A DNA stretch of 64,000 bases from assembly GCA_029582165.1 (NCBI GenBank), contig CM055893.1, positions 24,279,179 through 24,343,178 of the forward strand, read 5' to 3'. The position numbers and the translations under genes are program-made. The DNA comes from Portulaca oleracea. Lineage: Eukaryota > Streptophyta > Magnoliopsida > Caryophyllales > Portulacaceae. The notes under the pieces were generated by a model. The model did no database searches, was not told the DNA's origin, and saw only the letters and a list, made by a program, of their open reading frames with translations. This document shows positions 7,191-39,032 of the stretch, one piece after another. Each line of letters starts with the position of its first letter. Position 1 is the stretch's first letter.

Positions 7191-7199
7191 TAATAGTTA

Positions 7200-7690: not shown

Positions 7691-7699
7691 CCGGGATCG

Positions 7700-7904
7700 T
7701 CGTCTTTTTGTCACCAAACTAGTCATAGGAGGGAAGGAGGGTAACCCCGCTGGTTCTGAAAATACAGCCCCTATCTTCCCTCCCCAATCACCGCAAGTAG
7801 CCCAGAATACGAGAGACTTGAAAGCCCTTAGCCTGTTAATGAGGCCTTGGGGAGATCACCTACCCCTATCTTATTAGAGCCATAGAGCTCGTATGGAATG
7901 GAAG
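7700..7904 (+). pseudogene. LINE ORF1 fragment, upstream part, moved by inversion
   Basis: From 7,839 the frame begins MRPWGDH and runs 22 codons to 7,904, with one stop, ending MEWK. PW-D-L followed by a spaced W resembles the start of the DUF4283 domain in plant L1 ORF1 proteins. The next residues expected in that domain lie on the minus strand from 38,234 downward. If the inversion described in the findings is undone, the two pieces join in frame. On its own this fragment would be too weak to call. Confidence 0.5.
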
Positions 7905-8420
7905 TAGACCTGTCAGTTCGGTCGGTCGGGCGGTTTCGGGTCGGTCGTATATCGGGTTCGGGTAAATACGGGTCCAGTGTATTTCGGGTTCGGGAAAATA
8001 CGGGCGGTGTATTTCGGTTTCGGGTCAACCCAACGGGTTATGATTGTGACATTTTCCGTTTTTTCTTTTTCAAAAATGGTATCTAAATATTACTTTTTGT
8101 ACAATATACATAATAAAATATGATTATCGTCTAGTAATGATAGATAATTATAACTATTTTAACTTAAATAAGTGAAATAACAAATAAATAAGTTGCGCTT
8201 ATAGTTTAATAGTTAAAAATTTCAATGCAAAGTCACAAATTTTAATAAAGTTCAACTTAAAAAGTTAAATTTTCGGGTCAAACGGGCGGGTCGGGTTTGA
8301 CCCACTAATTTTCGGGTTCGGTATACTTCGGGTTTAGTTCAAAAAATCGTGTTCAAAACCCAAAAATTTCGGGCGGATTCGGGTCGGATTATCGGGTCGG
8401 GTCAGAAACTGCCAGGTCTA
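7905..8420. mobile_element. hAT-type MITE, copy 1
   Basis: The termini are inverted repeats: TAGACCTGTCAGTT at the left, AACTGCCAGGTCTA at the right. Subterminal sequence is full of GGGTCGGGT and TTCGGGT; the centre is AT-rich and non-coding. Its inverted partner is at 38,243-38,746 and the central ~300 bp are almost identical. The flanking octamers do not match each other (AATGGAAG left, ATCTCGAC right), but each matches one flank of the partner. This explains the apparent lack of a target duplication. Confidence 0.85.
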
Positions 8421-8609
8421 ATCTCGACATTTGTGAACTACATTTACCTTAGCTGAAAACAAAACCAATGATATTTGTGAACGACATTTGTGAACGACAT
8501 TTGTGAACTACATTGGAAGATAATAATCTAGTAAATTACATTTACCCTAGCTTATATTTGTGGTAATAATTTTTACACACCCGACATTTGTGAACTAATT
8601 GTTACCTTA

Positions 8610-10083
8610 TGTATCGTGGTTTTTTGTACCCCGGTTTTGTCGTTCTCTCTCAGGGAGCTAGGGGCCTTGGCTAGGTCAATCTGACTTTAGGTGAGGTTTA
8701 AGGATCACAAGACAACAAGAGGTTTTCAGGTAAAGGACTGCACAACAGAACGCAAACATGGCTAAGGTTCAGTCAAGAAAGAAACTATGGGTGTCGGGAG
8801 ATTTCGGGATGCAAACAGTAATTAGGACGAGGGTTTCGCAATCAGGAAACAATAAATCAATAGAATCAAATGACAGTCCCGTTAAAACAACCCACCGGAT
8901 TTCCTTTTTCAAGGTAATCCGGATTAACTTCCTACAAGTCCTCCACGGACCCAGAGGATAAGAGGAACGGGACTCTCTAGTTAACCTCTTTCCACTCTCG
9001 TGGGCGAGCGTTAACTATCCCAATTCCCACCTTCCAACGAGTGTTGGATGTATTCAAGAGCTTTCGATCTCGAATATATCCCACTTGAAAGAAGGATAGG
9101 ATTGGGAAATTGATTCCACTACGAATTACCTCCTAAAATTGTTAACCCAATCCGAATCAACCATTTACATCCTTAGTTTCTCCCTAACCCATAAGGGTTC
9201 TAGCCTCTAATCATCTTAACTAACATGCTAACAACAATAATAACTTCACTATTCATGCTTAAAACAGAAAATCTAGATAATCAAAGCAACAATCAAGTAA
9301 CAACAAACACCAAACAACAAAAACAGAGATTGTAAAGTAAATAGATGAATTAAAGAGAGTAAGGGTAAGAAATGCTCATTAATTTGATGCCAATGGAAGG
9401 ATGATCCAGAATAATAAGAATCCAAGCTCCAAAATAAGTTAAATCTTCAGAACTTCAATAGAATTCCAATAAAATCCACAGCAAATGCAATAAACCAAGT
9501 GTAATTACTCACTAATCACTAAGAAATCACTTTAATCTCCCTCTAATTGTAAGCTAAAATGTTGATATTACCATAGATAGCTGTCTCTCTAACCTAATCG
9601 TTCAAGGGGTAATATATACAACTCAAGGTGGTTACTCAAAACACAGCACTTCATATAACAGAATTTCTGAACCCGCAGGGGACCGCAGGTGCGGTCCTCC
9701 GAAGCTCAGGCGATTCTTCTCTTCTCCCTTCGCAAGATCGCGGGTGTGGTCTGAGGATCGCAGGTGCGGTCCCTCTCGGGTTACTTGCTCCTTGCCCCAG
9801 CCTTGGTCGACCACCGCAGCTGCTGTCTATGGGACCGCAGCTGCGGTCCTCCATGGCTGGCTTGGATCTTCTTCTTTACTTCGCTTTTGACCCGGTCAAG
9901 ACCGGGGAAACTTCGGGATTCCCAAAATAGCTCTAAAATAGCCCTTTTTACCACGTTTTGAGTAAAAACTCCAAAATCTACAAAATAACCAAAAACGTAT
10001 TAAAAGTTATGAAATTAAAACACGAAACGAGTCAAAAGCCTAAGAATTAAGGCGCTATTTAGACACAAAATTGGGACTAAACA
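8610..10083 (-). mobile_element. Solo LTR (Athila-like), 1,474 bp
   Basis: On the minus strand it begins TGTTTAGTCCC at 10,083 and ends CGATACA at 8,610. It is flanked by a perfect 5-bp direct repeat, CCTTA on the plus strand, at 8,605-8,609 and 10,084-10,088. No internal sequence is present, so the two LTRs of an element have recombined. The same family occurs as a truncated copy at 39,033-40,037. It contains a GC-rich block (9,676-9,862) and a TATA box on the minus strand (9,611-9,618). Confidence 0.92.
9676..9862 (-). repeat. GC-rich quasi-palindromes in the solo LTR
   Basis: Repeats of the type GACCGCAGGTGCGGTCC and GACCGCAGCTGCGGTCC occur at least four times. Each is a near-palindrome centred on a CpG-containing core. 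In the LTR's orientation the block lies ~60 bp upstream of the TATA box. Confidence 0.8.
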
Positions 10084-10649
10084 CCTTACCTGACATTAAG
10101 TGTTCATATATTTAAACCTCCTAAAATATTTTATAAATGATGTTTGTTGGATTTTTCGGCGAACATTAAAAAGATAAATATGAATTGACTTTTTTTACCC
10201 TTGATATTAATTCATATGACTTTCAATTAACATAAATTGATGTTTTTACCCTTAATATTAATTCATATGGTATTTATACCCCAACCCTTTCTCTACTTTA
10301 TTTCTTCGAAAACCTAATCCCTCCCCATTCTAAAAATGAAAACCCAATTATAAAATATCTTATAAAATATCAAGAGTGAACAATCAATTATAATGGAAGA
10401 AATATCTTATAATGAAAATGAAAAATAAAAATAAATTAATATCAAGGGTAAAAAAATTCAGTTAATATTTATCTTTTTAATGTTCGTCGGAAAATCCAAC
10501 AAAATTCAAATATAAAATATCTTAGGAGGTTTAAATATATGAACTCTTAATCTCAGGTAAGGTAAAAATTATTCCACAAATGTTGGGTGTGTAAAAATTA
10601 TTACCACAAATGTCAGATAGGGTAAATGTAATTTACTCGATAATAATCT

Positions 10650-11145
10650 CTATTATATTTTTGTACGCCCACGGTTCAATTAAAAATAAAGTTGCATTTC
10701 GTGAACCACCACCAATTTTGTACCGTAAATATTATGGATTTTGATTTGTATTTGTTTCCAACTTAGCACTATGCTTCCCCACTATTTTTTAGGAAATTTA
10801 CAACTTTGTCTCAATTGTATTAGATATTTTATATAATTGTTATGATTTGCCCTTTTATTCCTTACAAAATCATAATAATTGTTCGAATTCTCGAAAAAGG
10901 ATCTGAAAATTCTTTTAGTAACTACAATTTATAACCTTCTTGGTGGCATGAATGAAAGAATAATTAGAAGTATCTAAAAATTTCGAAAACCCCATAGTGA
11001 AAGTATGGATGTAGATTCGATACCAAAAAACTACCATTTTATTTTTTTGGGACTGACGACATACAAAAATAAAGTACGGACTAGTATCAGTTAGATATGG
11101 AGGTATATAGTACATAATGGCTAAAAGGCCTTTTCTCTCTCCTTT

Positions 11146-11217
<72 letters not shown>

Positions 11218-11870
11218 CTGTTTGTTCCACATAGGAAGAGTTGTGATGTTTTAAATGGGTTTAAATATTCTCATTTCCTATATTTTGGTATATTGGCTTG
11301 AAGATAGATTTTATGGAGGAGGGCTTGGTTTTGGCTTCCATACGCGCATGTCGCCGCCGCCGTCTGTCCGTCCGGGCAGGGTGCGGGTCAAGGGTCAGGT
11401 CCTTTTGGTTCCAGATTGTTCTTTTTGCGTTGACTAGATTAATTCTTCCAGATTTCTCTTATTAATGTCGCATATTTTACACCTCTTATTAATTCTCAAT
11501 TAATTCGCCTTGATTCTTGCCTCTATTTATTGTGTTTGTCTCTTCCATTTTTGTCATTCCAACAGTCATATCTTTCCTATAAATTAGCTTGCTAGACTGT
11601 TTGAACACATAGAACACATAACCATCTTCCCTTGTCTTCTTTTCTTTTCCTGAGGCAAATAGTTTTCCATACTCCAAGTTCTATGCCGCGAGTGCATGTG
11701 TCTAGGGGCTCACTGAGTTAACCTTAGGGAGTGACCGAATTTTCTCGATTGGCACCAAGGTCGGGTCGTAATCTCTTATAAGGCAGTGGTCATCCCACAA
11801 CTCAGTTTCTATCTTTCCCACAGCCTTGATCTTCATATTTTTCTAACAATTTGAAAGTGATTAAGATCAA
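10650..11870. other. No gene; microsatellite and possible copia leader
   Basis: A (TA)n tract of about 64 bp lies at 11,149-11,212. Around 11,340-11,400 there is a GC-rich 'gccgccgccg' patch. The last few hundred bases before 11,870 probably hold the 5' end of the copia element that follows, but I could not find an LTR boundary or primer-binding site. Confidence 0.5.
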
Positions 11871-12650
11871 TGGATGCTCCACAAAAATCCTTTGTTGAAG
11901 TTTACAAAATCGAGCCTTTCGATGGAACTAATTATACGCGATGATCTCAAAAATTGCTTCTCTGTCTAGAGCAATTAGAGATCAATTATGTTCTATCATG
12001 TCCACATCTTGAGGGGTTAGATGCAACAACTCCAGAAATGATCCAGAAAAACTCCAACTAGCGCAAAAACCCCCGTTATTCCCCTCGATGAGAATGCCTA
12101 GAAGAAACTGCAGAAAGACAACAAAGTGGCTCGGAGTTATCTTCTCAATAACATGACGAACGCGTTGTTTGATTTGTTCGTCGTGTTCAAGTCAGCCGGC
12201 AAGGCCATATGGAGATATCAAGTACGGTGTTGACGATGCTAGAAAGAAGAAGTATGTGGTTAGCAAGTGGCTGCAGTTCCATATCATTGATGATCAGCCC
12301 ATCATGGATCAGGTTCATGTCTATAAGAACTTGTGTGCTGAAGTTTTGAATGAAGGAATGAAGATGTGCGAGGTTTTGCAAGCAAATGTTCTTATTGAGA
12401 AGTTTCAACCATCATGGGATGACCACAGGAATCATCTCAAGCACAAGAAGAAAGATTTGATCCTTCAAGAACTGGTAAGTCATATGAGGACTAAGGAAGC
12501 TAACCGTTTGAAAGACAAGATGTCTTCACTGTCTTTGAATTCTGTTTAAGCTAACTTAGTTGAATCCGTTGAACCTCAAATAAAGACAAGTTCAAAGGAA
12601 AGAATAAGAAGGATCAAGAGTAATCTAAGCATCAGAATCAAGTGAACAAG
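11871..12650 (+). pseudogene. Ty1/copia gag, decayed
   Basis: The reading from 11,871 begins MDAPQKSFVEVYKIEPFDGT, the usual start of plant copia Gag with the conserved F-DGTNY motif. Frameshifts and stops follow. An open stretch at 12,169-12,549 keeps the middle of Gag, including YKNLCAEVL and the downstream LILQELVSHMRTKEANRL. The zinc knuckle near 12,690 is damaged. It could once have encoded capsid and nucleocapsid but cannot now. Confidence 0.8.
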
Positions 12651-13768
12651 CTTAGCAACAAAATCCAGAAGCCTAAGGTTTCCTATTATGTTTATGGCAA
12701 ACTAGGCCATATGGCATATTAGTGAAAACAACGCAAGGGAGCAAACCAATCCTAACAGAAACCCGCTGGACAGAATGGTGGACAAAATAAAGTTAATTTG
12801 ACTAAAGATTATGAAGTGTTATGTGCAGTAATTGTGGAATCCAATCTCGTTACTAACAACACCGAGTGGATTCTAAACAATAGAGCAACTAGACATTTCG
12901 GCACCAACAAGGAACTGATGCATGATTTTGTGGAGGTTCCTGATGGTGAACATGTCTTCATGAGCAATGCTGCCACTGCTACGGAAAGTTCTCCTTAAAT
13001 TTACTTATGGTAAAATTGTTATTCTTTATAATGGGGTATTTGTTGGGAAGGGGTATCTTAGTAATGACTTACATGTTCTGAATGTTGCTTTTGATGCTAA
13101 TGGAAATACTTCTACTTCTCCTTAAATTGTTGAGTCTGTTGATCTTTTGGCATGGTAGACTTGTACATTTGAATTATGCTTTCCTAAACAAACTAAAGAA
13201 CATGAAATTAATTTCAAATGTTAGCACAGAAAATTGTTCTAAATGTGATGTTTGTGTTGAGGCAAAAGTTTCCAAGAAACCTTTGAAGTCAGTAACTGCA
13301 AGATCAACATAGTTGCTTGAACTTGTTCATTAGACCTAGCTGACTTTAAGAACACAATGAGAAAAGGAGGAAAGAAATCGTATATCACCTTTGTAGATGA
13401 CTGCTCTAAATATACTAAAGTCTACCTTCTTAAGTGTAAAGATAAGGCTGAAGAAATGTTCCTAAAATATAAAGCTAAAGCTGAAAATCAACTAGACCGA
13501 TAAATCAAGAGACTAAGGTCTGATAGGGGTGATGAATATGATTCGAATTCCTTGGATGTCTTTTGTAAGAAAAATGGTATTATTCATGAGACAACTTCCC
13601 CTTACATACCACAACAAAATGGTATAGCTGAATGTAAGAACTGTACCCTCAAAGAGATGATGAATGCCATGCTTGTGAGTTCTGGATTACTTGATAATAT
13701 GTTGGGGGGGGGGGAGGGGAGGAAGTTTTAACTGCATATTTTATTCTCAATAGAGTTCCCTAAAAAAG
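12651..13768 (+). pseudogene. Ty1/copia protease and integrase, decayed
   Basis: WILNNRATRHF at about 12,868 corresponds to the protease active-site region WILDSGATRH; the DSG triad is lost. Further on, LLAW..LVHLNYAFLNKL matches the integrase histidine-rich region and C-x2-C near 13,240. SYITFVDDCSKYTKVYLLK, LRSDRGDEYDS and TSPYIPQQNGIAE carry the three integrase catalytic residues. Stops and a G-run slippage near 13,705 break it. Order and motifs are typical of copia. Confidence 0.85.
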
Positions 13769-14762
13769 GTGGACCATACTCTATATGAAATTTGGAAAGG
13801 GTATGCCCCAAACTTGAATTATTTGAAAGTGTGGGGGTGTTTAGCTAAAGTTGTTTTGCCTAGTCATAAGCGTACCAACATAAGCCCTAAAACTTTTGAT
13901 ATTATATTCATTGGTTATGCTCAAAACATTGTTGCTTATAGTTTAATGTCTTTACGTGATTCTTCAATTTCTGAATATAGAGATGAATTTTTTGAGCATG
14001 TATTTCCATTGAAGAAGAATGTGTCTAATGTTGTAACTGAAGTTGTGCTTGATGTTACGCCTGGGAATGTTAGCTTGCCTTCTTCTAGTTTTAATGCTAG
14101 AATTATAGAAATTGAACCTAGAAGAAGTAAGAGGCAAAAAACTGCAACTGATTTTGGACCTAACTTTGTTACTGTTTTCCTAGTGGAAGTTTTTAATCAT
14201 TTTGATATAGATGTCTTAACTGAAGAATTTGTGTAAGTTTTTCAGACTGATGAAGATCCAAAAAATTATGTTGAGGCTTTTAGGTCTATTAATACAACCT
14301 TTTGGAAAGAAGCCATTAAAAGTGAAATAGATTCCTTAGAGTCTAATAAAACATAGGAATTAACTAATTTGCCAAAAGGTTGTAGAGCTATTAGTAGTAA
14401 ATGGATTTACAAAAAGAAGTTAAGGGCCAACGGATCAATTGATAAATATAAGGCCAGACTTGTTATTAGAGCTTTTGACCAAAAGAAAGGGATAGATTAT
14501 TTTGACACATATTCTCATGTGACTAAAAATAAGCAGCATTAGATAATTGATTGCTTTAGCTGCTATTTTTTATCTTGTTGTCCGTCAAATGGATGTTAAG
14601 ACAGGGTTTCTTAATGGTGACTTAGAGGAAGAAATTTATATGATCTAAGTAGAAGTTTGTGAGGTTCTAGGTCAGGAGGATAAAGTGTGTAGACTAAGAA
14701 AATCTCTTTATGGCTTAAAATAAGCTCCCAAACACTAGTTTGAAAATTTTGATAGTTCTCTT
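13769..14762 (+). pseudogene. Ty1/copia integrase C-terminus and reverse transcriptase
   Basis: The 155-codon frame at 13,769-14,236 contains YLKVWGCLAKV and HKRTNISPKTFD, the conserved copia integrase tail, and then ERRRSKRQK-like basic residues. From about 14,280 the RT begins: a KAIKSE-like stretch, then GCRAISSKWIYKKK and YKARLVIRAFDQKKGIDY. The frame decays, and copia similarity ends near 14,762, where repeat sequence starts. The YVDD region, RNase H and 3' LTR are absent, so the element is 3'-truncated. Confidence 0.85.
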
Positions 14763-15055
14763 GTGAAAAATGGGTTTACGGCAAATCTGTCTGATTCTTT
14801 TACGGTGCAGTGCGACTTGATAATGGTGCGGTGGAATTTGAAAAAGTGTGGTGAGTTATGGTGAGAATTGTGGTAGGTAGGGTAGGTGAGGAGAGATAAT
14901 GTAAAAAGTAGATGAGAAAAGTGAGGAGAGAGAAAAATAAAAAAATATATTGGTAATATTTGTGCTAAAATATGGTGAACTGTGGTAGAATATTGAGTAG
15001 TGCGGTGCGGTGTGGTATCACATCGCAACCTACCGCAAAAAAGCACAAAGCCTTA
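14763..15055. mobile_element. Probable hAT-like MITE ending the copia fragment
   Basis: The ends carry imperfect inverted repeats rich in TGCGGTGCGGT. The left begins around 'gattcttttacggtgc'; the right, read on the minus strand, around 'gtgcttttttgcggtagg'. It interrupts copia RT, but the copia reading does not resume on the other side. No target duplication was found, so the class is tentative. Confidence 0.4.
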
Positions 15056-16800
15056 AATACTACCATTACAAAAAGGTGTTTGGCTACCTATGATAAAACA
15101 TACATGATACATGTAATGTGTTCAGAAGGGTCTCACATATTATGCCATATGTTATGATCCGTTAAAATATGTCAATATTTTATGTGATGAATTTGTAGGT
15201 GAATTTTACAATAAATATGAACAAATTAACAATAAATTTATAATAAATATGAATAAATTTATTTATAAAATTTAATACTTTAATGGGTCTAAATAAATAC
15301 CCAAGGTATATTTATATATGGGATTTTGGCTCCAATTAATATTTACTCATAGGCGAGTGATTTGAAATAATTCAAACTGACTTTTTGGGTAACATTGTGT
15401 TGTACTTTTAACCTATTTACTGTCACTAAACTTTTTTTTTCTATATTAGGCACTAAATTTTGGATTTTTTATTGCTAAAAATAGAACAAAAGTTTATTGA
15501 CAGTAAATTTAATAGTATAGTAAAATGTCAGCCAACAAATTAATTTAAATTATTTTCAATCACTCATCTAATTATAGATTAATACAAGCCAAAACCCCTT
15601 TATATAATTATATAACACCATGAAAGACCTATGCTACGTAGCAACCTTAAACTACTTTTCTACTATCCTTTCCTTTCCTTTAACTAATATAAAAGGCACA
15701 GTTTTTTTTTTTTGTTCGTAAATTACTTGCCTGCTTGCTTGCTTGTATTCGCACAAATTCATTATTTTATCCTTAGATATAATAATTAATCTACAGTTCA
15801 CCTTTAGCTTGTGTTTACACACGGATTTACTCTCTACCCTCGAATGCAATGACTAGGTAATATAGGTTGACTATATATTTGGTTATGGTAAACACGGGTC
15901 GGGTGTATTTCGATTCCGGGTAAATTTCACTCTAAAAATATGACTTGGGTGTATTTCAAATTCAAGTAAATACGGGTTAGATGTTCTTTGATAGAAAAAA
16001 AAATCTTTTTAGGGTAAATACGGATCCGGTGTATTTGGTTTCGAGCAAATTTCACTCTAAAACGAGGACCCGAGTGTATTTCAGGTTTAGGGTATTTGTG
16101 CAATTTATTATTTAATAATTTTTTAATATAAAAAATAATGGACATTTTCTCTTTTTACACATGCACATTAAACTAGACAAGTGCACAATTTCTTTTTGCA
16201 AATCAAGTCTTTAGTTGTAAAATTTTTATACAATCATTTCCTGAAATAATAATACAAAGTTTTCCATCATTACCAGAACAAATATATAAAATAATAAGAT
16301 TGCTTATTTATTGATTATGTAAAAAGTCCTCTACTTTTATACCTTTGCATCACACCAATAACCTAATGGCTGGTTTAATAATTAAAATGAAGGCATAGAA
16401 TAATAACAGCAATGTTATCAACATAGGGAAAAAACTTCCATAAGAAAAAAACATAGGGAAAACTTGGAAGGGGTCAAGATATGTCTCCAGGGGTCAGATA
16501 TTTTAGAGTCAGGAATCAGGGGGGAAGAAGATATTGAGATTTAAGAAGGAAAATCCGGCCCTTGGAAATGGTGAAGCGTCCATTAATATCCTACGTGGCA
16601 TTTTCACGCTTATCTCCTTTTACAGTTCCTGAACCCCACGGACACAATCTATGCTCCAGAATCCCGATTCCGACACAAGTGGGGGTGATCCAAATATCTG
16701 AATTTGAGTTTAAGAATAAGAAAAAAGCCTTAATTAAATCTACTTCCCTTGAGTTTTTTTTATTTTATTTAATACTCTATTTCTCATACTATATGCTACT
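15056..16800. other. No gene; diverged GGGTGTATTTC repeats
   Basis: AT-rich sequence with no supportable ORF. At 15,880-16,095 there are three to four diverged tandem copies of a ~70-bp unit containing GGGTGTATTTC and 'gggtaaatttcactctaaa'. These resemble the subterminal repeats of the hAT MITEs and may come from such an element. Confidence 0.5.
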
Positions 16801-16801
16801 A

Positions 16802-17321
16802 CCTCCGTCTCAAATTTTTTATACTCCCTCTGTCTTTTAATAAATGTCAAACTTTTTAACTACCTTGTCCCTTTTTATTTGTCAATTTTATATTTTTAAT
16901 AATTAAAATACCTATATTACCCTTAATTAATGGATAAAATTTTATTTTATCTTTTAAAATTCTCTTTTCTTCCCCTCTTTTAATGAAGGGTATACTTGTC
17001 CATACATAATTTTTTCACTCTATGTCCAACACACTTAGGTTTTGTAAAAGTAGTTAATTTGACACTTAAAAAGGGACGGAGGGAGTACTTTTTACCTAAC
17101 TTCTTTGTCCAAAAATATTTGTCATATTCACATTCCCAACAATTGTAATTACTTTTCTACCCCTAATTAATAAATTCATGTATCACTTTTTACAATTTCA
17201 ACAATTATTATCTTCAAAAAAATTGGGGTAATTTGGGTAAATTCCAAACTTTTAACCTCAATTCCCAACATGCATTGTTCCTCCCAAATTAGGTAAATAG
17301 ACAAATATATTGGGACGGAGG
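16802..17321. mobile_element. Stowaway MITE, host of a second Stowaway
   Basis: Inverted termini CCTCCGTCTCAAATTTTT and AATATATTGGGACGGAGG are flanked by TA on both sides (16,800-16,801 and 17,322-17,323), as for Tc1/mariner-derived Stowaway elements. Without the inner element it is about 256 bp long. Confidence 0.85.
16824..17085. mobile_element. Stowaway MITE nested in another
   Basis: Termini CTCCCTCTGTC and GGGACGGAGGGAG are flanked by TA duplications at 16,822-16,823 and 17,086-17,087. The 262-bp element lies close to the left end of the outer Stowaway, so it arrived later. Confidence 0.88.
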
Positions 17322-17472
17322 TATTATGTGTTTATTATTTCACAGTTATCAATATTTATTTTTATTGATAATTTCTGACAAAATATTTTATTAAAAAATT
17401 ATAATATTAAATTTTTATTAATAATATTTTTTTATTGTAAATATAACGATGACATTTATATAATAAAATATC

Positions 17473-17731
17473 ACTCCCTCTATTCCTTATTAATTGTCGT
17501 CTTTAACAATTGCATAGTCAAACATTAAAAATTTTGACTATAAAGTTCTCAATATACAGAATGACTTGTTACATAAAATTTATAATTATATTCGTAATGA
17601 AAAAATATTGTCAAAAAAGTAAAATGTTGCAATTATTAATAAGTATTATATTAGAAATAGTCAATCAAAAAGGGTGATACTAAGGACTATGAAAGTCAAT
17701 TAAGTGATAATTAATATGGAATGAAGGGAGT
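17473..17731. mobile_element. Stowaway-like MITE
   Basis: ACTCCCTCTATTCC at the left and GGAATGAAGGGAGT at the right form the inverted termini, with TTAATTGTC / GATAATTAA just inside. A TA-rich flank hides the exact target duplication. It is non-coding. Confidence 0.75.
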
Positions 17732-17744
17732 ATATATATATATA

Positions 17745-17824
17745 TGTTGAGGTATTAGTTGCCAAAATTTTCAAATTTGATTGACACGTATCTTTAGGTG
17801 ACATATAATTTGGGAATGAGGGAG
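17745..17824. mobile_element. Truncated Stowaway, right end only
   Basis: The right terminus GGGAATGAGGGAG followed by TA, preceded by GGTGACATATAATTT, matches the right-end pattern of its neighbours. The left end is missing, possibly lost in the (TA)n tract at 17,731-17,744. Confidence 0.5.
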
Positions 17825-17891
17825 TATCGTGTACCATTTTTTGGATCTGTATTTTAATTAATTATTTTTTATATAATGTTTTATAAAAATA

Positions 17892-18117
17892 CACTCTTCC
17901 TTCCCATATTATCTAGCACGCATTAATTAATGCATAGTATTTCATGTTTTATCCAAAAATTACAAGATTATACTTTTATGATAGTGTATTTTGTTACGAA
18001 TCTAATGATAGTGCTTTTGTATAATAAACTATTATATATGTTGACAACCTAATGATCAATATTCTTAAAGTTTGACTGAGATATAGATTTAGGTGACAAA
18101 TAAAATGGAAATGAGAG
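17892..18117. mobile_element. Stowaway-like MITE, diverged termini
   Basis: CACTCTTCCTTCCCATATTA at the left and AATGGAAATGAGAG at the right pair imperfectly. TA dinucleotides flank both ends (17,890-17,891 and 18,118-18,119). Confidence 0.65.
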
Positions 18118-18247
18118 TATAACATTATATTTTTATAGTATTTTTTTTACTCGTATTACAAATTCAATTATATGAATTTACTATGATACATCATTATACA
18201 AATTAAGACATTAACGACAAAAATTTTTAACTTAAAAACTTAGATGA

Positions 18248-18260
18248 TATCCCCCCCCCC

Positions 18261-18342
<82 letters not shown>
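18248..18342. repeat. Compound microsatellite C-AC-AT
   Basis: A C-run is followed by about 24 AC units and about 18 AT units. Confidence 0.95.
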
Positions 18343-18345
<3 letters not shown>

Positions 18346-18498
18346 CTGAGTACAAAGGGTGAGAGGTGGAATATGTGAGTTTTATTCAGGGTATTTTTGG
18401 AAATATATAATTGCTTTTTTTTACTTTGCTAAAAAAATTATTTTATTCACACTGATTAATGGGATGAAACTACAGGAAAAAGATCTTCTTTATTAAAA

Positions 18499-18743
18499 TT
18501 AGGTCTCAACCCGTGCGATACACGAAGTATATTAAAATAGTTATTTTGAAAAATCAAAAATTTAATAGTAATTACATGTAAATATAATTTAGAAATATTA
18601 TTCCAAAATAATTATAATTACTTATAGTTGCACCAAAACAATTTAGTTCAACAGTTATCTACTTTTTGATTGGGTAATCCCTACAATCAATCTCTTTTCT
18701 CCATTCAGCGGAACCCACAAACTTTACTATTAATATTATATAG

Positions 18744-18744
<1 letters not shown>
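18499..18744 (-). mobile_element. Short Helitron-like element
   Basis: On the minus strand it starts TCTATATAATATTAATAG at 18,744 and ends CTAA at 18,499. The start is preceded by A and the end followed by T, as expected for Helitron insertion between A and T. A short hairpin with stem CGTG/CACG (around 18,511-18,523) lies about ten bases before the end. At 246 bp it is non-autonomous. Part of its interior is repeated just outside at 18,777-18,880. Confidence 0.6.

Positions 18745-18779
<35 letters not shown>
18743..18779. repeat. (ATT)n microsatellite
   Basis: About twelve ATT units lie directly beside the 5' end of the Helitron-like element. Confidence 0.9.
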
Positions 18780-18780
<1 letters not shown>

Positions 18781-27533: not shown

Positions 27534-30033
27534 CGAGGAAAATCGCCTCTTAATACGTATTAATTAGTTTAAATAATCAAGGTTAAAATTAAATCACGAA
27601 TAATTTAAAGCGCGTGTTCCATTTTTCTAACCGAGTGTATGTTTTACAGGACTTGAGCGATGCAACAACCGTCCATGATTTAATTTAATTTTCTTTTCTT
27701 GAGAAATCTCTACCGTTAAATTTTTATAGTGATTCTGATCGTATATGAATTCTTTTACCGAGACCAATGTATCGGGTCTTTCTTTTATCTAAGTCAATTT
27801 GGGATTATAATTATGAGAAATTTCATGGAGGAGTATTGATATATTTATTTGGGTTACCAATAATATTTTACGATATACCAAGTTTTTAGTAATTTGGGAT
27901 TTGGGAATTATAAGTGTAGGAGGAAGGATTAAAATTGATAAAAATTTACCTTGGGCCTTTTGATTTAATCGGCCACTAAGGAAGAAAGGGAGGCAGGCCT
28001 TTTTGTTTTGGGCTTAGGACATGGTTATGTATCTTTATAAGATTAAATTAGAAGGGAGATAGACCTTTTGAAGCCTAATCTCTCAAATCTCTCATGTCAT
28101 GCTCCCTCTCTTCCATTTGCTCCTCCACAGGCCGCCACCTCTCTGCCACCTGCTGTCCGGCCACCACCAGCCCATGCCGGCGAGTTTTTCCGGCCATTTT
28201 TCGGCCACCGTCGCATCCTTGCACCACCATCATCTTTGTTCTCTATTCTCTTCTCCTTTACAAGTGTAAAATAAGTGTTTCTAAGTTCATCAAGTAAAAA
28301 GGGAAGAATTTCAAGCATCAAGGAGAGAAATCTTGGTCCTTCCAAGAGATCGTTGCACTACTGTTCAAGTCTCTGCCCGTCCAGTACGTATTCTTAAGTC
28401 TTCAGGTACGTATATTGCCTGATTTTTTTTATGAATAATAGCATGAACTAATCATTTATGTTCAGTTCTAAATTTATTTTATATTAGCCATGTCTATATG
28501 TAAAGTATCATGATTTATGTTTAAAAATGTATGCAAGTTCTCACGGAGTCTTTTTAAGTAATTCTGGTCAATTTATCAGCGTGATTTCACAATTATTTCC
28601 AAGTATTTTTATTGCATACCCGTTATATCAGAAAACTTTTACAATAAAATTTATGCTTTGGATAATTGAATCAATTAATGAATATTCCCCTTTAGATGTA
28701 GAAGTCTTATTCGAGGAGTTCACATAGGTATATGTTTAAGTTATAATTAGGAAATGGTAGTTTAACGAATCAATTTCATTAAGAACCCAAGGTCAAGGTA
28801 TCAAGGTTTAAGTTTTCAGGTTTTAGAAGTAAGTAAAGGCCCCACCCATGTTTATGGTGCTTTAGCACACACCACGTTTATGGTGCCTTAGTGCACACCA
28901 AGGGAAAACATGTTTTTGTGCCTTAATGCACCCCAAGTTGTTTATATATGTGCCTTAGTGCACCCAAGAAAAAAGATAGCTTTAGTGCCTTAGTTGCGCA
29001 CCATGAAAACCTGGCCAGTAGGATTATTATCCACCATCCGGATCTCCCGATCGGTCCGGGTATGTGCATACGGAGGCGTAGCCAATGATCGCAAAGTAGG
29101 GGATCTTCAGGGTAATAATACGACAACTAAATGTTACGTAGCTAAGTACTTTAAGGATCTAGCTTAAAGGTTAAGTCTTATAGGACGTGTTTATGGGTTT
29201 TAAATATATTTTACAACATGTTATAAGTCGCATTTTATGATTGGTCTGAAATAACAGTTTATGCTATATGTTGGGTATACGATTCGACTCATGTTTTATG
29301 ACGTAATTTACTTGTCACTTTCTAAATCATGTTTATGGAAAGGTTCCAAGGGTATGTCTATGTCGATTCATGCATGATCTTTTAGATTTCAAACAAGTTT
29401 ACGGTTATTCAGTACCTTTAAAAGGAAGAACTTACAAGTATTTTCATTAAAGTTGTGATTTAAATACATGTTAAGTTATATTTCTCATGTACAGGTTAAA
29501 TACGGTCAAGCTATGTAAGTTTTGCTACCTTTTTAATGGTTATTTGCTATTTATCTTGTTTCTAATGTTTGGAACTGCGCTAAACAACTAAAACGAATTA
29601 TAAATAGATTCTTATGTTGTTAGGGGTATACGTAATGAGTTCAACTCACTTTGCGAAGTTTTATGTTTTTGTTTTAGGAATCTCGGCAAAGGACAAGGGA
29701 AACGCCCCGGAAGGATGAAACCCTAGAGCTTCTTAAGGAGATTGAAGGTGGTTAAAGACTCTTTATGAAAGAGTTAAGGGAAATTTGTGATAGTGTGGCT
29801 TGTATAAGTTATATTGGGTTGTGTTAGGTTGCTTTGAAGTGGTTTAAGTTAAGTTATGTCTTGAGGATGCATGATCAGAGTTAGTGTATGTTCGGTTGTT
29901 TCGTTGGGTTTAGTCTTAGCCTTGTCCACTTCCGTGAACGGCGGTAATACTCCTAGGTGTTTATCCGCTGGTAATCATTGGGTTAGGTATATCATTAGCT
30001 TAATCTAGTGGTTAGTAACCTGGGGGCATTACA
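27534..30033 (+). repeat. 5' LTR of the Tekay-like element
   Basis: It starts TGTAACAACC and ends GGCATTACA. Between 28,855 and 29,003 it contains five variants of GTGCCTTAGTGCACC. The short ORFs at 28,068-28,345 on both strands recur in the 3' LTR with indels and are not genes. Confidence 0.93.
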
Positions 30034-30037
30034 ATTA

Positions 30038-30047
30038 TGGTATCAGA
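30038..30047 (+). other. Primer-binding site, initiator tRNA-Met type
   Basis: TGGTATCAGA starts four bases after the LTR end. It is complementary to the 3' end of plant initiator tRNA-Met. Confidence 0.85.
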
Positions 30048-32860
30048 TCAAAACAAACTTGGAGAAACACCTTTGGGATATCTTTAGGTTTTGAGGAAAA
30101 AAGTATATGATAAAATTAGGGGTAATTAAGCAATATAAAGAACACGATAAGAGTTTATATGCATGTGATTTGTTAGAATTTAAGTACATAAGGTACTTGA
30201 AGAAATGCTTGAGTTTTGTTCTAAGTTAAACAAGGAAATTCGGGGTGTGAGAAAAGTCTAAGTGTATGCATAGTGGTGTGAAAAGATCTAGGCAATAAAG
30301 ATTTATGCATGAATGCGGGAAAGAGTGAGTATAGGTTGAAGTTTATGTTCAAGATTTACTACAAGTTCATACGTCTGGGAAATATTGGTAAATGATGATG
30401 TTATGCTTGTTTATGGGAAATGTTAAGATATAAGGTGACGCGACGTTATAAGTTCGAGACCAATTATGATACCTGAAGTGTTAAGATTTGATATAGGTAT
30501 GGGTTTCGTCCGGGCAAATTTATGATATAAGTTTATGCCAGTAGGAGATTGTTTTACTTTGTTAATTCATAAATTGATATATGATATGTTGGAAGACCGA
30601 TCCCAGAATGCCAAACCCTCACACGATATTGACGAAACCGGAGGATTGCGTTTCCTCGCCCATTATGAAGTTAATGGAGGTCCTTATAAGATTAGAAATC
30701 AGGAGTTCAATTGGGCTAGCATATTTACCCATATGAAAGTCATTTCATTTTACAATAGATAACGGATTCGAAATCGCCGAACCCTTTACGCTATTCGTAC
30801 GGAACCAGGGGAGCTAGTCTCTGCACACGTTTCTAAAATGATAAAAGTCTTTAGTAAGTTAAGCCAAAAATCCATAGTTTAAGTACCGTGATTGAGTGAA
30901 GAGAGCTCACCGTCGGCTGACGACCCTCCCATGTAGTTACTCATGTATGGTATTTCCAAAACAAGTACCATGATTTCCCCTACACGCATAACTAGGACAT
31001 ACGCGAGGAAAGGTATCAGATATCAGGAGCTGGAGCATAGACCACTACGACCTTCCAGTTGCTACTTCAAGAGTATGGGGACTTCAAGGGTATTTCACAT
31101 ATAGTGTAGCGACCTCTTGGGACCCCAATCTTTTCTCTGGCTACGCCGTATGATTCTAATGGTATAAGGTGGTATAAGTAACATCGGGTCCTAAGGTCAT
31201 AAAAAAAAAAAAGTTTGAACCAAGAAGTAGAAAGTAAGGGTAAAAATGGGATAAGAGTGACCCAAGATCTAAGTAAGCAATGACTCAGATGATCAAGTCT
31301 ACCCCTTCACCTAGGACAGTTGGAAGAGGCAAAGATGGTTATATGAGGGTAAGAGCATAGTGATGTTTTTTTTTTTTTTTATATATTGTATAGTCGGGTT
31401 GGACGTAAGCGGTAACGGTGATGTGTTTGTAAGAGAAGATTATATCGCCAACCAAACCATGCTTAAGTGCCGCCCGAGTTAATTTTGGGACTAGGGCAGA
31501 TAGGTCTGACCCTAGGGATGATCAGGGGAAAGTGTAAGTACATGTGGTGGTTTCTAAAGCGGGGAGCAAACATATACATGAATGTATGCCCTGTGATAAG
31601 TGCTAAGAGAACCATCGCATGACAAGATTTTATATAGTCAAAGACGTCTGTGAAACCATGAATGGCATGACAAATGTGTTAACTAGACGTATAATCTTAG
31701 TGTACCCGATTACGTTTAAGTTGTATGTAGGGTTATCATAAGTGCTTTTAAGTTTAAGTAGTCGTATTTCTGGGAACTCTACTGAAATTACTACAAAGTG
31801 GTAGGGAAGAAAAGTGGTTACGAGTTCTCGATCATTTAATTTTGGTTTAACGGCTTACTAAGGATGGTCAACCAGGTGAACAGAGGTTTTATATAGTATC
31901 CACATCTCACCATGAGGTAGTAGAGCCATCGTGTAAATCTCCGTTTCATGATTAGTCTGGAGGATTATAATTATACCACTTGGCAATCGTATCTTTCCTT
32001 TACCATGCTTACCCCTCTGTACCTACCTATTTCTTTTATAGGAAATAAAAAGGAGAGTAAAATGTCTGGTATTAGTTCGAATGGTGCTATATGGTTTATG
32101 AGATAAAGTTGAAAAATATTGGAAACAGTTTCTAAAGAAAGATATACAGGACCTTTGAGTTTAGATTGCTTGAGAAAGGGACGGGTATTAGTGTAAGGAT
32201 ATATGATACTTGAAAGAAGGAGTAGCTAGTTTTACAAAAGAATGAGAGTCATATGGATAAATTCTAAAAGGGGGTACACGTTGTCACCCCATTGTTTTGT
32301 GAAGAAATGAAAAGGTCCAGACAGTTAAAAGGTGTAACACCCAGTGCTTTGGGGTAGATAAGAAACTTTTGCATTCACTGGCAAAAGCTTATTCGGAAAG
32401 TATGTGAAATATGAATCCATAATCCTATGAATAACCGGCTTAGTTATTTATTCACGAATGATGACCTTAGGGTTAGACATGATAATCGACAAGATTAAGG
32501 AAATAAGTCGAAGGAAGGAGCAAGCCAGATGTTCGCGCTGGATAAATACATCTATCAAGTCTCAGGAAGTGAATCATAAAGGAAACTAGCGACTCCGTAA
32601 TGTCCCTAGTGCGGGATAGGTAGTACGTGATAATGCAGGTTAAAATATGATCTCTCTAGAGATCGCAAAGTTGAGAGATCGCACCTAACATGGTGTGAAG
32701 TCATCCTTTGGTTTAGCTATCTTCTTTAAGTTCCAAGAACGAAACCTAACTTCAAAACTGCCAGATAAAAAGGCGCATGTGGAAATTAAAGGGTCCAAAG
32801 CCCAGTTGTGAACTAATATAAGGAAAGTTCATAGAACCTAGAGTGTGTTCCCTTGGGGGG
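30048..32860 (+). pseudogene. Tekay-like leader, gag and protease region, decayed
   Basis: Position between the primer-binding site and RT implies gag and protease, but I can identify little. A 'cctgtgataagtgct' stretch near 31,590 could be a remnant of the zinc knuckle. Stops are frequent in all frames. The only ORF of note is 30,535-30,762 (75 codons), including HYEVNGGPYKIRNQEFNW, which I do not recognise as gag. The region has decayed more than the LTRs suggest. Confidence 0.5.
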
Positions 32861-33700
32861 CACCTGTGCTTGTATAAAGAAGGGAGATGATCGTTTAAGA
32901 TTATGCATAAATTATAAAGGATTAAACAAGGTTGCTATCAAAAATAAGTATCCCCTTCCTCGAGATGGCGACCAGTATAATCAGTTACCTGGAGTTGGAA
33001 TGGTTCGAAAGTTGATTCGAGGTTAGAGTAACATCAAACAAAGATCAAGTTGGAAGATGTACATAGGGCTGCTTTTAAGGCTTGATATGGATATTATGGG
33101 CCTATAGTTATGTCTTTGAGCTTACCAACGTGCTAACAATATTTATGGATTTCAAGAACTAAGCATATGGGTGAGTGTAGGCAAAGATACGGTTGCGCTC
33201 TGACAATGTATTGAGCCACTTAAAGACTCAAAAGGGACATGAACGACAAGTGAGAAATTAGTCACAAACCTCAAAGCAGCGTCAATCATTTACTAAGTTG
33301 CCAAGGCTTAGGTTGTGGTTAAGAGAAATAACATCCTTAGGACATATAATGATCTAGAAGGTAATCCGGATCGATCAACAAAAAGTGAGTACAATTACAA
33401 AATAATGCAGAGCAGTAATTATTCCCAAGATAAGGGGTTTCGAGGCAGACAAATCGTGGTTATCAATGCACTCAAGAACTTGTTTGAATATTTTCTTGCC
33501 GTGACCAAAGGGTGGAAGGGAAACTCCAAAATTGTGTAGACTGAGGAATGTGGGGAAGCTTTTCAAGGACTTAAGAAAGGTTTCAGTATAGTTCAAGTGC
33601 ACGCCTAATATTCCGACCTCAATGGCACCAATTGTGCAGAACATGAAAATAGAAATGGTATACCGAAGGGAAACATGAGATTGAGATTGACCAAGTGTAG
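32861..33700 (+). pseudogene. Tekay-like reverse transcriptase and RNase H, decayed
   Basis: RT begins at about 32,875 with KKGDDRLRLCINYKGLNK followed by NKYPLPR, the conserved start of the Ty3 RT. Near 33,100 the reading PIVMSLSLPTC.QYL corresponds to VMSFGLTNAPATF. The YVDD box is not recognisable. Near 33,500 FLAVTKGWKG..KIV..TEECGEAFQGLKK matches the start of Ty3 RNase H (LTKK...W..ECE.AF..LK). Many stops are present and about half of RT seems deleted. Confidence 0.8.
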
Positions 33701-34260
33701 CCATTATATTCCAATAAATGAGAGTTGGAAGATAGGCAAGTTAGCTAGCATTTATGTGAAAGGGAAAAAGTAGTGAGGCTACAAGACATTCCAAAAAGAC
33801 ATAGTCTCTAGCCGAGATACCAAGTTCCAGTCACGATTTTGGGCATATTTGCAAAGAGCGTTCGACACCAAGCTGAACTTCAGTAGCTTGTATCACCCAG
33901 AAACCTATGGCCAAACAAAAAAAGTAAATCAGATAGTGGAAAACCTGCATAGGGCTTTTGTTTTAGATTCTCAGGAAAGCTGGGGAAACTTTTTACCGTT
34001 AGTAAGATTTTCCTACAATAGCAGTTATCAAGTTATAATTCAAATAACACTGTTTGAAGCCCTTTACAGTAGGAAATGCAGGTCTCCTTTATGTTGGAGT
34101 GAGTTGGAGGAAACCCTGTTGGTAGGTCTTGAGTTGATACAATACATGATGGATAAATTTCGAGTCATTCAGCAGCTTATCCGGACGGCCATAGCTGACA
34201 GAAGAGCTGTGCATATAGGAGAAAGAAACCCCTAGAATCTTAGCCAGGGGACAAAGTATT
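33701..34260 (+). pseudogene. Tekay-like integrase core
   Basis: The reading starts near 33,800 with SSRDTKFQSRFW (the DxR/F segment, catalytic D) and continues in the 128-codon frame from 33,849. SSLYHPETYGQTKKVNQI corresponds to the catalytic-glutamate motif YHPQTDGQTERVNQ; the glutamate is now lysine. LVRFSYNSSY and EALYSRKCRSPLCWSE follow, the usual Ty3 integrase end of the core. A stop at 34,235 precedes the C-terminal part. Confidence 0.9.
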
Positions 34261-34338
34261 TCTCTAGGTGTCACCCACTCAAGGAGCGCGTAGATTCAAT
34301 GTTAAAGGGAAAGCTAAGTCCTCGGTATACTGGACCTT

Positions 34339-34674
34339 ATGAGATTATTGAGAAAAATTAACTCGGTCGCATATAGGCTTGAATTGCCTACAGAATTAGA
34401 GCATATTCATGATGTGTTCCATGTCTCTCAGTTGCGCAAATATATACCAGACCCAAACACTGAACCCGAGCCAATATCTATTGCCAGGAATCTATCTTAT
34501 GAAGAAGTGATCGTTCAGAGTATAGACCGGAGAGTCAAACTTTTACGCTCCAAAGAGATTCCCCTGGTAAAAGTCCTTTGGACTACTCACTCCATGCGGA
34601 AGCTGCAGGGGAAACAAAAGAGGACATGCGAAACAAGTACCTCCATCTGTTTTAAGGCAAGACACCAAAGATAA
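34339..34674 (+). pseudogene. Tekay-like integrase C-terminus with chromodomain
   Basis: The 111-codon frame starts in the GPY/F region (preceding bases read SPRYTGPYEI). It continues LPTELEHIHDVFHVSQLRKY, the conserved end of the Ty3 integrase, and then NLSYEEVIVQSIDRRVKLLR and IPLVKVLW. The latter match the chromodomain that targets chromoviruses to heterochromatin; VKVLW is its tryptophan-containing strand. The last helix is frameshifted. The chromodomain supports a chromovirus and excludes Athila/Tat for this element. Confidence 0.88.
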
Positions 34675-34690
34675 GAGGGTAGTATTTTTA

Positions 34691-34727
34691 AGTTTCGGGG
34701 ACGAAACTTCTTTTAAGGGGAGTAAGA
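34691..34727 (+). other. Hairpin and polypurine tract before the 3' LTR
   Basis: AGTTTCGGGGACGAAACT (34,691-34,708) can fold with a 7-bp stem. It is followed by AAGGGGAGTAAGA (34,715-34,727), the polypurine tract that would prime plus-strand DNA synthesis. Confidence 0.8.
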
Positions 34728-37227
34728 TGTAACAACCCGAGGAAAATTGCCTCTTAATACGTATTAATTAGTTTAAATAATCAAGGTTAAAATTAAATGA
34801 CAAATAATTTAAAGCGCGTGTTCCATTTTCCTAAGCGAGTGTATGTTTTGCAGGACTTGAGCGGTGCAACGATCGTCCATGATTTAGTTTAATTTTCTTT
34901 TCTTGAGAAATCTCTACCGATAAATTTTTATATAGTGATTCTGATCGTATATGAATTCTTTTACCGAGACCAATGTATCGGGTCTTTCTTTTATCTAAGT
35001 CAATTTGGGATTATAATTATGAGAAATTTCATGGAGGAGTATGGATATATTTATTTGGGTTACCAATAATATTTTACGACATACTAAGTTTTTAGTAATT
35101 TGGGATTTGGGAATTATAAGTGTAGGAGGGAGGATTAAAATTGATAAAAATTTACCTTGGGCCTTTTGATTTAATCGGCCACCAAGGAAGAAAGGGAGGG
35201 AGGCCTTTTTGTTTTGGGCTTAGGACATGGTTATGTATCTTTATAAGATTAAGTTAGAAAGGAGATAGACCTTTTGAAGCCTAATCTCTCAAATCTCTCA
35301 TGTCATGCTCCCTCTCTTCCATTTGCTCCTCCATAGGCCGCCACCCCTCTGCCACCAGCTGTCCGGCCCCCACCAACCCACGCCGGCGAGTTTTTCCGAC
35401 CACCGTCGCATCCTTGCACCACCATCATCTTTGTTCTCTATTCTCTTCTCCTTTTCAAGTGTAAAATAAGTGTTTCTAAGTTCATCAAGTAAAAAGGGAA
35501 GAATTTCAAGCATCAAGGAGCGAAATCTTGGTCCCTCCAAGAGATCGTTGCACTACTGTTCAAGTCTCTGCCCGTCCAGTACGTATTCTTAAGTCTTCAG
35601 GTACGTATATTGCCTGATTTGTTTTATGAATAATATCATGAACTAATCATTTATGTTCAGTTCTAAATTTATTTTATATTAGCCATGTCTATATGTAAAG
35701 TATCATGATTTATGTTTAAAAATGTATGCAAGTTCTCACGGAGTCTTTTTAAGTAATTCAGGTCAATTTATCAGGGTGATTTCACAATTATTTCTAAGTA
35801 TTTATATTGCGTACCCGTTATAATAGAAAACTTTTACGATAAAATATATGCTTTGGATGATTGAATCAATTCATGAATATTCCCCTTTAGATGTACAAGT
35901 CTTATTCGAGGAGTTCACATAGGTATATATTTAAGTTATAATTAGGAAATGGTAGTTTAACGAATCAATTTCATTAAGAACCCAAGGTCAAGGTATCAAG
36001 GTTTAAGTTTTCAAGTTTTAGAAGTAAGTAAAGGCCCCGCCCATGTTTATGGTGCTTTAGCACACACCACGTTTATGGTGCCTTAGTGCACACCAAGGGA
36101 AAACATGTTTTTGTGCCTTTGTGCACCCCAAGTTGTTTATATATATGCCTTAGTGCACCCATGAAAAAAGATAGCTTTAGTGCCTTAGTTGCACACCATG
36201 AAAATCTGGCGAGTAGGATTATTATCCACCATCCGGATCTCCCGATCGGTCCGGGTATGCGCATACGGAGGCGTAGCCAATGATCGCAAGTAGGGGACCT
36301 TCAGGGTAATAATACGACAACTAAATGTTACGTAGCTAAGTACTTCAAGGATCTAGCTTAATGGTTAAGTCTTATAGGACGTGTTTATGGTTTTTAAGTA
36401 TATTTTACAACATGTTATATGTCGCATTTTATGATTGGTCCGAAATAACAGTTTATGCTATATGTTGGGTATACGATTCGACTCATGTTTTATGACGTAA
36501 TTTACTTGTCACTTTCTAAATCACGTTTATGGAAAGGTTCCAAGAGTATGTCTATGTCGGTTCATGCATGATCTTTTTTATTTCAAACAAGTTTACGGTT
36601 ATTCAGTACCTTTAAAAGGAAGAACTTATAAGTATTTTCATTAAAGTTGTGATTTAAATACAGGTTAAGTTATATTTCTCATGTACAGGTTAAATACGGT
36701 CAAGCTATGTAAGTTTTGCTACCTTTTTAATGGTTATTTGCTATTTATCTTGTTTCTAATGGTTGGAACCGCGCTAAACAACTAAAACGAATTATAAAAA
36801 GATTCTTATGTTGTTAGGGGTATACGTACTGAGTTTAACTCACTTTGCGAAGTTTTATGTTTTTGTTTTAGGAATCTCGGCAAAGGAGAAGGGAAAAGCC
36901 CCATAAGGACGAAACCCTAGAGCTTCTTAAGGAGATTGAAGGTGGTTAAAGATTCTTTATGAAAGAGTTAAGGGAAATTTGTGATAGTTTGGCTTGTATA
37001 AGTTATATTGGGTTGTGTTAGGTTGCTTTGAAGTGGTTTAAGTTAAGTTATGTCTTGAGGTCGCATGATCAGAGTTAGTGTATGTTCAGTTGTTTCGTTG
37101 GGTTTAGTCTTAGCCTTGTCCGCTTCCGTGGACTGCGGTAATACTCCCAGGTGTTTATCCGCTGCTAATCATTGGGTTAGGTATATCATTAGCTTAATCT
37201 AGTGGTTAGTAACCTGGGGGAGTTACA
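34728..37227 (+). repeat. 3' LTR of the Tekay-like element
   Basis: It is the same length as the 5' LTR and aligns throughout. Differences are mostly transitions, with small indels, for example a short deletion near 35,396 relative to the 5' copy. It ends GGAGTTACA and is followed by the AGGAG duplication. Confidence 0.93.
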
Positions 37228-37232
37228 AGGAG

Positions 37233-37789
37233 ACACCCTATTCCAATTCTTAGAGCTAGACATCGAGAATCTGGGTTTGTTTGACGTTCCCCCCACGCAG
37301 TTGAGGGACATTGAAATTTTTCAACCACAATCTCTACTTTAGTTCTATATCAGGGCGGTGAGGACAAGATTCTATTTTTTGGTCTTCCCCCCCCCCCCCC
37401 CACTAAAGCTCTCTCCTGGAACACCACTTCAAACTCCTCATTTTCAGGAAATGTAGGGGAACGAATGGGAGATAGATAGACCATATTGAAGGGAATACCC
37501 CCCTCAAACCCAGTCACTTCCTTTGGTACCTGGTAACTTTAGAAGAGCTGGCTCCCATCTCCTGGTTTTAGTTATCTACTTTATTAGCCCTTGGGTAGGT
37601 TATGGGTCTTTGTCCCTTTTTAGGAGACACCCTAATCTAATTCTCAAAGCTAGACATCGAGAAACTGGGTTTGTTTGACGTTCCCCCCACGCAGTTGAGG
37701 GACATTGAAATTTTTCAACCACAATCTCTACTTTGGTTCTAAGTCAGGGCGGTGTGGACAAGATTCTATTTTGTGGTCTTCCCCCCACA
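37233..37789. repeat. Tandem duplication in LINE ORF1
   Basis: The segment 37,401-37,789 repeats 27,299-27,533 plus 37,233-37,400. The unit is ~390-400 bp and the junction is a C-run (37,387-37,400). The Tekay-like element sits only in the first unit, between 27,533 and 37,228, so it arrived after the duplication. The copies differ at scattered sites. Confidence 0.88.
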
Positions 37790-38234
37790 CAAGGCACATA
37801 CTTCATGTAATCCCTCATAGATGAGAGGAATTTGTTTGGATTGACCGCCAGCAGACACCACAAGGGACCCCCGGTAAAGGCTTGGTGACATCAATATTAA
37901 TACACACACGAGAAAATTTACCTTTCAGCCTCAAAAGAGTGTTTTGGTCCACCTTAATGACTCTACCCACTGGTTTAAGGAGTTGGACAAGGACATCAAA
38001 ATCCCAAAACTCCCACTGGAGTCTCCAGATCCTGACCTATTGGTCTACATGAGTAATTTAAGTCGACATAGGTTCAAAGAATGAGATAAATTCCATAAGG
38101 ACAATAGACAAACCCCCCCACCCCATAGTGTAGGGCCTCCTATTGTACACATTTGCTTTATCTTCTGCATTAGCAAAGAAGACAAGAGTCCAGCCCTCCC
38201 CCATATCAATGAAAGACATATCCCCTTTGACACA
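37790..38234 (-). pseudogene. LINE ORF1, DUF4283-type domain
   Basis: On the minus strand from 38,234: GDMSFIDMGEGWTLVFFANA, NVYNRRPYTMG, then FWDFDVLVQLLKPVGRVIKV and KGKFSRVCINIDVTKPLPG. This is the nucleic-acid-binding domain of plant L1 ORF1 proteins. The following region reads, in another frame, a C-x2-C-type knuckle near 37,790. Two stops interrupt it near 38,057 and 38,042. Its N-terminal part would be at 7,839-7,904 before the inversion. Confidence 0.82.
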
Positions 38235-38242
38235 CTTCCATT

Positions 38243-38746
38243 TAGACCTGGCAGTTTCTGACCCGACCCCATAATCCGACCCGAACCCGCCCGAAATTTC
38301 TGGGTTTTGAACACGATTTTTTAAACTAAACCCGAAGTATACCGAACCCGAAAATTAGTGGGTCAAACCCGACCCGTCCGTTTGACCCGAAAATTTAACT
38401 TTTCAAGTTGAACTTTATTAAAATTTGTGACTTTGCATTGAAATTTTTAACTATTAAACTATAAGCGCAACTTATTTATTTGTTATTTCACTTATTTAAG
38501 TTAAAATAGTTATAATTATCTATCATTACTAGACGATAATCATATTTTATTATGTATATTGTACAAAAAGTAATATTTAGATACCATTTTTGAAAAAGAA
38601 AAAACGGAAAATGTCACAATCATAACCCGTTGGTTGACTAAACCAAATACACCGCCGTATTTTCCCGAACCCAAATACACCCACCCGTATTTACCCGAAC
38701 CCGATATACGATCGATCACCGATCGACCGAATCGAATCAGTGTCTA
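38243..38746. mobile_element. hAT-type MITE, copy 2, inverted
   Basis: It starts TAGACCTGGCAGTTTC. The right end, CAGTGTCTA, has diverged from the expected CAGGTCTA. The sequence is the reverse complement of 7,905-8,420; the central part is nearly identical, the right ~100 bp more divergent. The flanking octamers (CTTCCATT at 38,235-38,242 and GTCGAGAT at 38,747-38,754) match the flanks of copy 1 and not each other. Confidence 0.85.
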
Positions 38747-38754
38747 GTCGAGAT

Positions 38755-39032
38755 CCTTCAAGCTGCTGCTTTTTGTCCTCTTTCCTTTTTATTTTCATTG
38801 GTTTTGTTTTCACTTTCCCTCTCTCCTTTTTCTTTGGCTTTTGTCGGTATAGCCACTACAAACCCTCACGAGTCCATCTCGTCCACCTGGGCTGCTGGGG
38901 GTTCAAAGGGCTTGGTGCATACGCTAAATGCACTCGTTTCTCTCCCACGACAGAGGAGTTTGTGTTAGTCTAGGTAGTTTCTTGTTTTGCTTTGCTCGGG
39001 ACGAGCAAAAGTTTAAGCGTGGGGGGGGGGGG
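38755..39032 (+). other. Athila 3' tail with polypurine tract
   Basis: It is similar to 4,420-4,657 in the first Athila element, including 'ggcttttgt(c/g)ggtata' and 'gctcggg(a/g)cgagcaaa'. It ends in a G-run (39,020-39,032), the polypurine tract directly before an LTR start. This implies that the following LTR was the 3' LTR of an element whose internal part is now missing. Confidence 0.75.

Follow-up and report, generated by a model that had tools for sequence, protein, structure and literature searches.

Inversions formed by recombination between MITEs or transposons are already known; the locus described here is a clean new example, and the phenomenon is not new. For inversion 2z3 of Drosophila buzzatii, the cited passages report copies of Galileo with exchanged target duplications (PMC2775673). 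Inversion 2s of Drosophila mojavensis involves BuT5, called a MITE, and in the cited passages the exchanged duplications are taken as proof of ectopic recombination (PMC3355041). In Brassica napus, a 29.8-kb inversion with two 327-bp PIF/Harbinger MITEs is described in connection with cleistogamy (Wan et al. 2022, as summarized in the cited part of the review PMC12595863). No plant hAT-MITE inversion with exchanged duplications appears by title among the matches listed, and we do not claim that there is none.

Within the 64-kb stretch of DNA analysed here (the window), which looks like plant DNA by the types of its elements, two MITEs lie in opposite orientation. We take the pair to be hAT-like, on account of the 8-bp duplication and of the ends given below together with the adjoining features.

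7905..8420, plus strand: MITE 1 (copy 1), 516 bp, hAT-like, ends TAGACCTG
38243..38746, minus strand: MITE 2 (copy 2), 504 bp, opposite in orientation to MITE 1, outer end degraded (TAGACACTGATTC)
7897..7904, plus strand: octamer AATGGAAG, flanks MITE 1 on the outer left and pairs with 38235..38242 as the first target duplication
8421..8428, plus strand: octamer ATCTCGAC, flanks MITE 1 on the inner side and pairs with 38747..38754 as the second target duplication
38235..38242, minus strand: CTTCCATT, which is AATGGAAG on the minus strand, flanks MITE 2 on the inner side and completes the first target duplication
38747..38754, minus strand: GTCGAGAT, which is ATCTCGAC on the minus strand, flanks MITE 2 on the outer right and completes the second target duplication
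8421..38242, unstranded: segment between the MITEs, 29,822 bp, presumably inverted, as judged from the octamers
8030..8258, plus strand: identical core of MITE 1, 229 bp, equal to 38405-38633 of MITE 2, proposed zone of exchange

The two MITEs are 95.2% identical over 499 columns in inverted alignment (blastn). No further full copy was found in the 64-kb window by blastn, and a 20-base word of the MITE had no match in viral contigs. In the present order MITE 1 is flanked by AATGGAAG and ATCTCGAC and MITE 2 by CTTCCATT and GTCGAGAT; neither copy has matching flanks, and the crosswise match is exact. Flipping the segment yields the flanks AATGGAAG/AATGGAAG and GTCGAGAT/GTCGAGAT, that is, a perfect 8-bp duplication at each MITE, and zero bases are lost or gained where MITEs and flanks join. 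Two traits of hAT MITEs are found at this pair: the 8-bp target duplication, in the restored order, and short terminal inverted repeats (in copy 1 these are TAGACCTGTCAGT and TAGACCTGGCAGT; copy 2 is degraded at one end). The first-pass annotation had placed both MITEs and all octamers correctly to the base, and its claim that neither MITE is matched as it stands holds true, with both matched after the flip.

The likeness to the Galileo case is considerable: in both, oppositely oriented copies of one DNA transposon occupy the breakpoints with exchanged duplications, and other insertions at the breakpoints have normal ones (PMC2775673, cited passages). According to the same passages Galileo differs in being longer and foldback-like; moreover, both the uninverted arrangement and chimerism were demonstrated in that case, whereas the MITE inversion is here read from one sequence. 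BuT5 of inversion 2s shares with our pair that it is a MITE with exchanged target duplications, of 9 bp there and 8 bp here. In that case, as the cited passages of PMC3355041 describe it, one copy is a 27-bp footprint and the inversion is fixed and has adjoining genes, whereas both MITEs are nearly full length here. The Brassica napus inversion is likewise from a plant and likewise bounded by two oppositely oriented MITEs; there, however, the 327-bp PIF/Harbinger elements exchanged promoters between two genes (PMC12595863, cited part), whereas the present MITEs measure 504-516 bp, have 8-bp duplications and lie in transposon-rich DNA. We regard the equal length of the two inversions as a coincidence.

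Crosswise target duplications make an inversion readable from a single assembled sequence where transposons abound and gene markers are missing. Small inversions that alignment often misses could be counted by scanning a genome for inverted MITE pairs with crosswise duplications.

The probable course of events is as follows. One MITE would have lain next to AATGGAAG within a LINE; a second of the same hAT-like family, in opposite orientation, would have lain next to GTCGAGAT, in a patchwork that adjoins a gypsy-like element. Each would have had its own 8-bp target duplication. The DNA between them would then have been inverted by ectopic homologous recombination, for which the 229-bp identical core is the most likely place, leaving each MITE half joined to the flank of the other site. 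The crosswise duplications also suggest the order of events, in which the LINE would have come first, then the MITE inserted in it, and finally the inversion. Ectopic recombination fits because exchanged duplications with nothing lost or gained are exactly its prediction. We consider inversion by ectopic recombination between the inverted MITEs the best reading and hold it with good confidence; what the sequence directly shows are the crosswise octamers, the uneven divergence of the copies, the 18-bp word on both sides of the second junction and the normal duplications of three nested elements, and what we infer is the crossover itself, its position and the correctness of the assembly. Crossing over between inverted copies had already been named in the first-pass annotation, and it is indeed the simplest mechanism that fits.

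Differences between the MITEs are distributed unevenly along their alignment: 24 events fall at the outer ends (columns 1 to 128), none in the following 229 columns and six in the last 162. The core has a GC content of 0.22, and lower mutability of such AT-rich DNA may explain part of its identity. When A/T sites alone are considered, the core has 0 differences at 179 sites compared with 8 at 139 in the rest (P 0.0012) and with 3 at 87 in the 3' part (P 0.034). End-to-end comparisons of the MITEs scored 12, 12, 9 and 8, without a pattern, there being no other full copy in the window. It is plausible that the 229-bp core was the zone of exchange.

The same core bears on the first of the competing explanations, namely that the genome in fact has the uninverted order and that the assembly was led astray at the inverted 500-bp repeats. 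A false join within the core would produce exactly these letters. On the other hand, the window is free of ambiguous bases, and in it 2.5-kb LTRs are resolved despite being 95.9% alike, as is an AT run of about 340 bp. Because longer repeats are resolved and ambiguous bases are absent, the assembly was probably built on reads longer than the 516-bp MITE, and we judge an assembly error unlikely. Somewhat less likely still is that double-strand breaks at the MITE ends, made by transposase or otherwise, released the segment and that it was religated in reverse without any internal crossover. The resulting arrangement of flanks is the same as after an internal crossover, and one sequence cannot separate the two. 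End joining and hAT excision, however, usually leave small changes, and the joins between flanks and MITEs are clean, with zero bases changed. We also give little credence to the idea that the flip recurs or is driven by transposase at the MITE ends, with both orientations still in the population; inverted MITE pairs would then serve, in DNA rich in transposons, as units of inversion that can be switched.

Aberrant transposition, either as insertion of a hybrid element between copies at one site or as transposition using reversed ends, fits worse than ectopic recombination, and we consider it highly improbable. The hybrid-element model likewise yields exchanged duplications, yet as presented in the cited passages of PMC2775673 it predicts identical copies, whereas 30 events distinguish the present MITEs, 24 of them at the outer ends. 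Transposition by reversed ends should, on our reasoning, leave matching inner flanks, and the inner flanks differ. Finally, coincidental crosswise matching of flanks of unrelated insertions, which the first-pass annotation had rightly called very unlikely, can practically be dismissed: by window composition, a given pair of sites would carry both octamers with a probability of 2.2e-10, before a small look-elsewhere factor. When 2,858,789 random position pairs were compared, left-side matches numbered 161 and right-side matches 149, and none matched on both sides. Within the 64-kb window ATCTCGAC occurs at the two MITE flanks only, and AATGGAAG occurs nine times, both strands counted.

Apart from the octamers, the proposed inversion can be examined at its junctions. 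At the second one, an 18-bp word is present on both sides:

8454..8471, minus strand: 18-bp word TCATTGGTTTTGTTTTCA, 25 bases from the ATCTCGAC octamer
38795..38812, plus strand: second copy of TCATTGGTTTTGTTTTCA, 40 bases away from the octamer, inside an internal region of gypsy-like type

Even with 3 mismatches allowed, the word has these two sites only in the window, and restoring the order places its copies in direct orientation at a distance of 91 bp. Words of at least 18 bp were shared by three of 2869 random pairs of 100-bp stretches. The presence of TCATTGGTTTTGTTTTCA on both sides is independent evidence that supports the restored order, derived from the octamers, at the second junction. 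The gypsy-like region that holds the copy at 38795 is 82% alike to 4408-4570. The copy at 8454 lies in a patchwork, where a 20-bp word at 8425 is exactly repeated at 8495; we suggest that TCATTGGTTTTGTTTTCA near 8454 may be filler that was copied from the two neighbouring sequences when these still adjoined. Within 8425-8514 there is also a 13-bp tandem repeat, ATTTGTGAACGAC, and the inner octamer of MITE 1 runs into it.

The first junction, as well as the control elements discussed further below, involves the following features:

7641..7896, plus strand: candidate start of LINE ORF1 outside the segment, suggestive
21343..38234, minus strand: LINE, ORF1 to poly-A, split by the LTR element at 27524-37227, ORF1 start missing on this side
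8529..10639, unstranded: Mutator-type MITE, with the 9-bp duplication ATAATAATC at 8520-8528 and 10640-10648
8610-10083, unstranded: solo LTR inside the Mutator-type MITE, with CCTTA at 8605-8609 and 10084-10088
27524..37227, unstranded: LTR element nested in the LINE, 9,704 bp, with AGGAG at 27519-27523 and 37228-37232

The left side of the first junction resembles, as we presume, the start of a plant LINE ORF1. At the restored join the DUF4283-like LINE frame CVKGDMSFIDMGEGWTLVFF is in phase with the longest open frame to the left. The Pfam score for DUF4283 is 14.2 bits when the parts are joined and 13.9 for the right part alone, with nothing for the left part alone, against a cut-off of 27.2. 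Because there is a stop 9 codons before the restored join on its left side, the crossing frame is 67 aa long; another restored frame reaches 83 aa and a control join in present order 123 aa, longer than any restored one. By codon scores of the left flank the expected frame is the best among the plus frames, and two minus frames score higher. An open run of 84 codons, as on the left, was equalled in 409 of 5000 shuffles, and no word longer than 6 bp is common to both sides of this junction. Continuity of LINE ORF1 across the restored first junction would thus be only suggestive. Possible 5´ target duplications of the LINE were also sought in 1-7904; the candidates near 3200 and 5695 scored 11, as did 18 of 1050 null comparisons, and were dropped.

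On the minus strand of the segment, RVT_1 exceeds the Pfam cut-off, and zf-RVT and DUF4283 stay below theirs; because of these three matches we identify the element as a LINE. Its RT gave 8 pattern matches in viral contigs and its ORF1 108 in genome contigs, none confirmed in either set. Between 12.2 and 14.2 kb, SH3_retrovirus exceeds its Pfam cut-off, and a copia-type gag scores below its own (E 5e-5). In the LTR element at 27524-37227, the two largest open frames between the LTRs have no Pfam match near cut-off. The label "Tekay-like" of the first-pass annotation is thus unconfirmed by Pfam.

The 9-bp duplication suggests that the MITE around the solo LTR belongs to the Mutator-type superfamily. 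Target duplications are intact in all three nested elements, namely the solo LTR (CCTTA), the Mutator-type MITE (ATAATAATC) and the LTR element (AGGAG); among the five elements checked they are disturbed in the two hAT-like MITEs only.

Several other repeats are present. A LINE portion of about 395 bp occurs in tandem (37228-37786 and 27294-27523, with 93.9 and 95.2% identity), and its second copy hosts the LTR element at 27524-37227 with its AGGAG duplications. An inverted pair of 1.08-kb LTR repeats, 89% alike with gaps, is located at 9005-10085 and 39031-40037; in the restored order they would become direct repeats near the second MITE site. The former is part of the solo LTR with CCTTA, and the latter is without the last part of the LTR. 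Inversion through these repeats was rejected, since the first lies in the CCTTA-flanked solo LTR and the MITE octamers would have stayed unswapped. CCTTA on both sides also argues against a single split element having these two as its LTRs. At the repeat-search threshold, the window contained no other LTR copy of the 39031-40037 family. The truncated LTR is directly followed by an open frame of 752 aa (40028-42283), which carries Retrotrans_gag and an aspartyl protease. A 657-bp direct repeat (60346-61002 and 63344-64000, 94.5% identical) extends to the window end and is perhaps another LTR pair.
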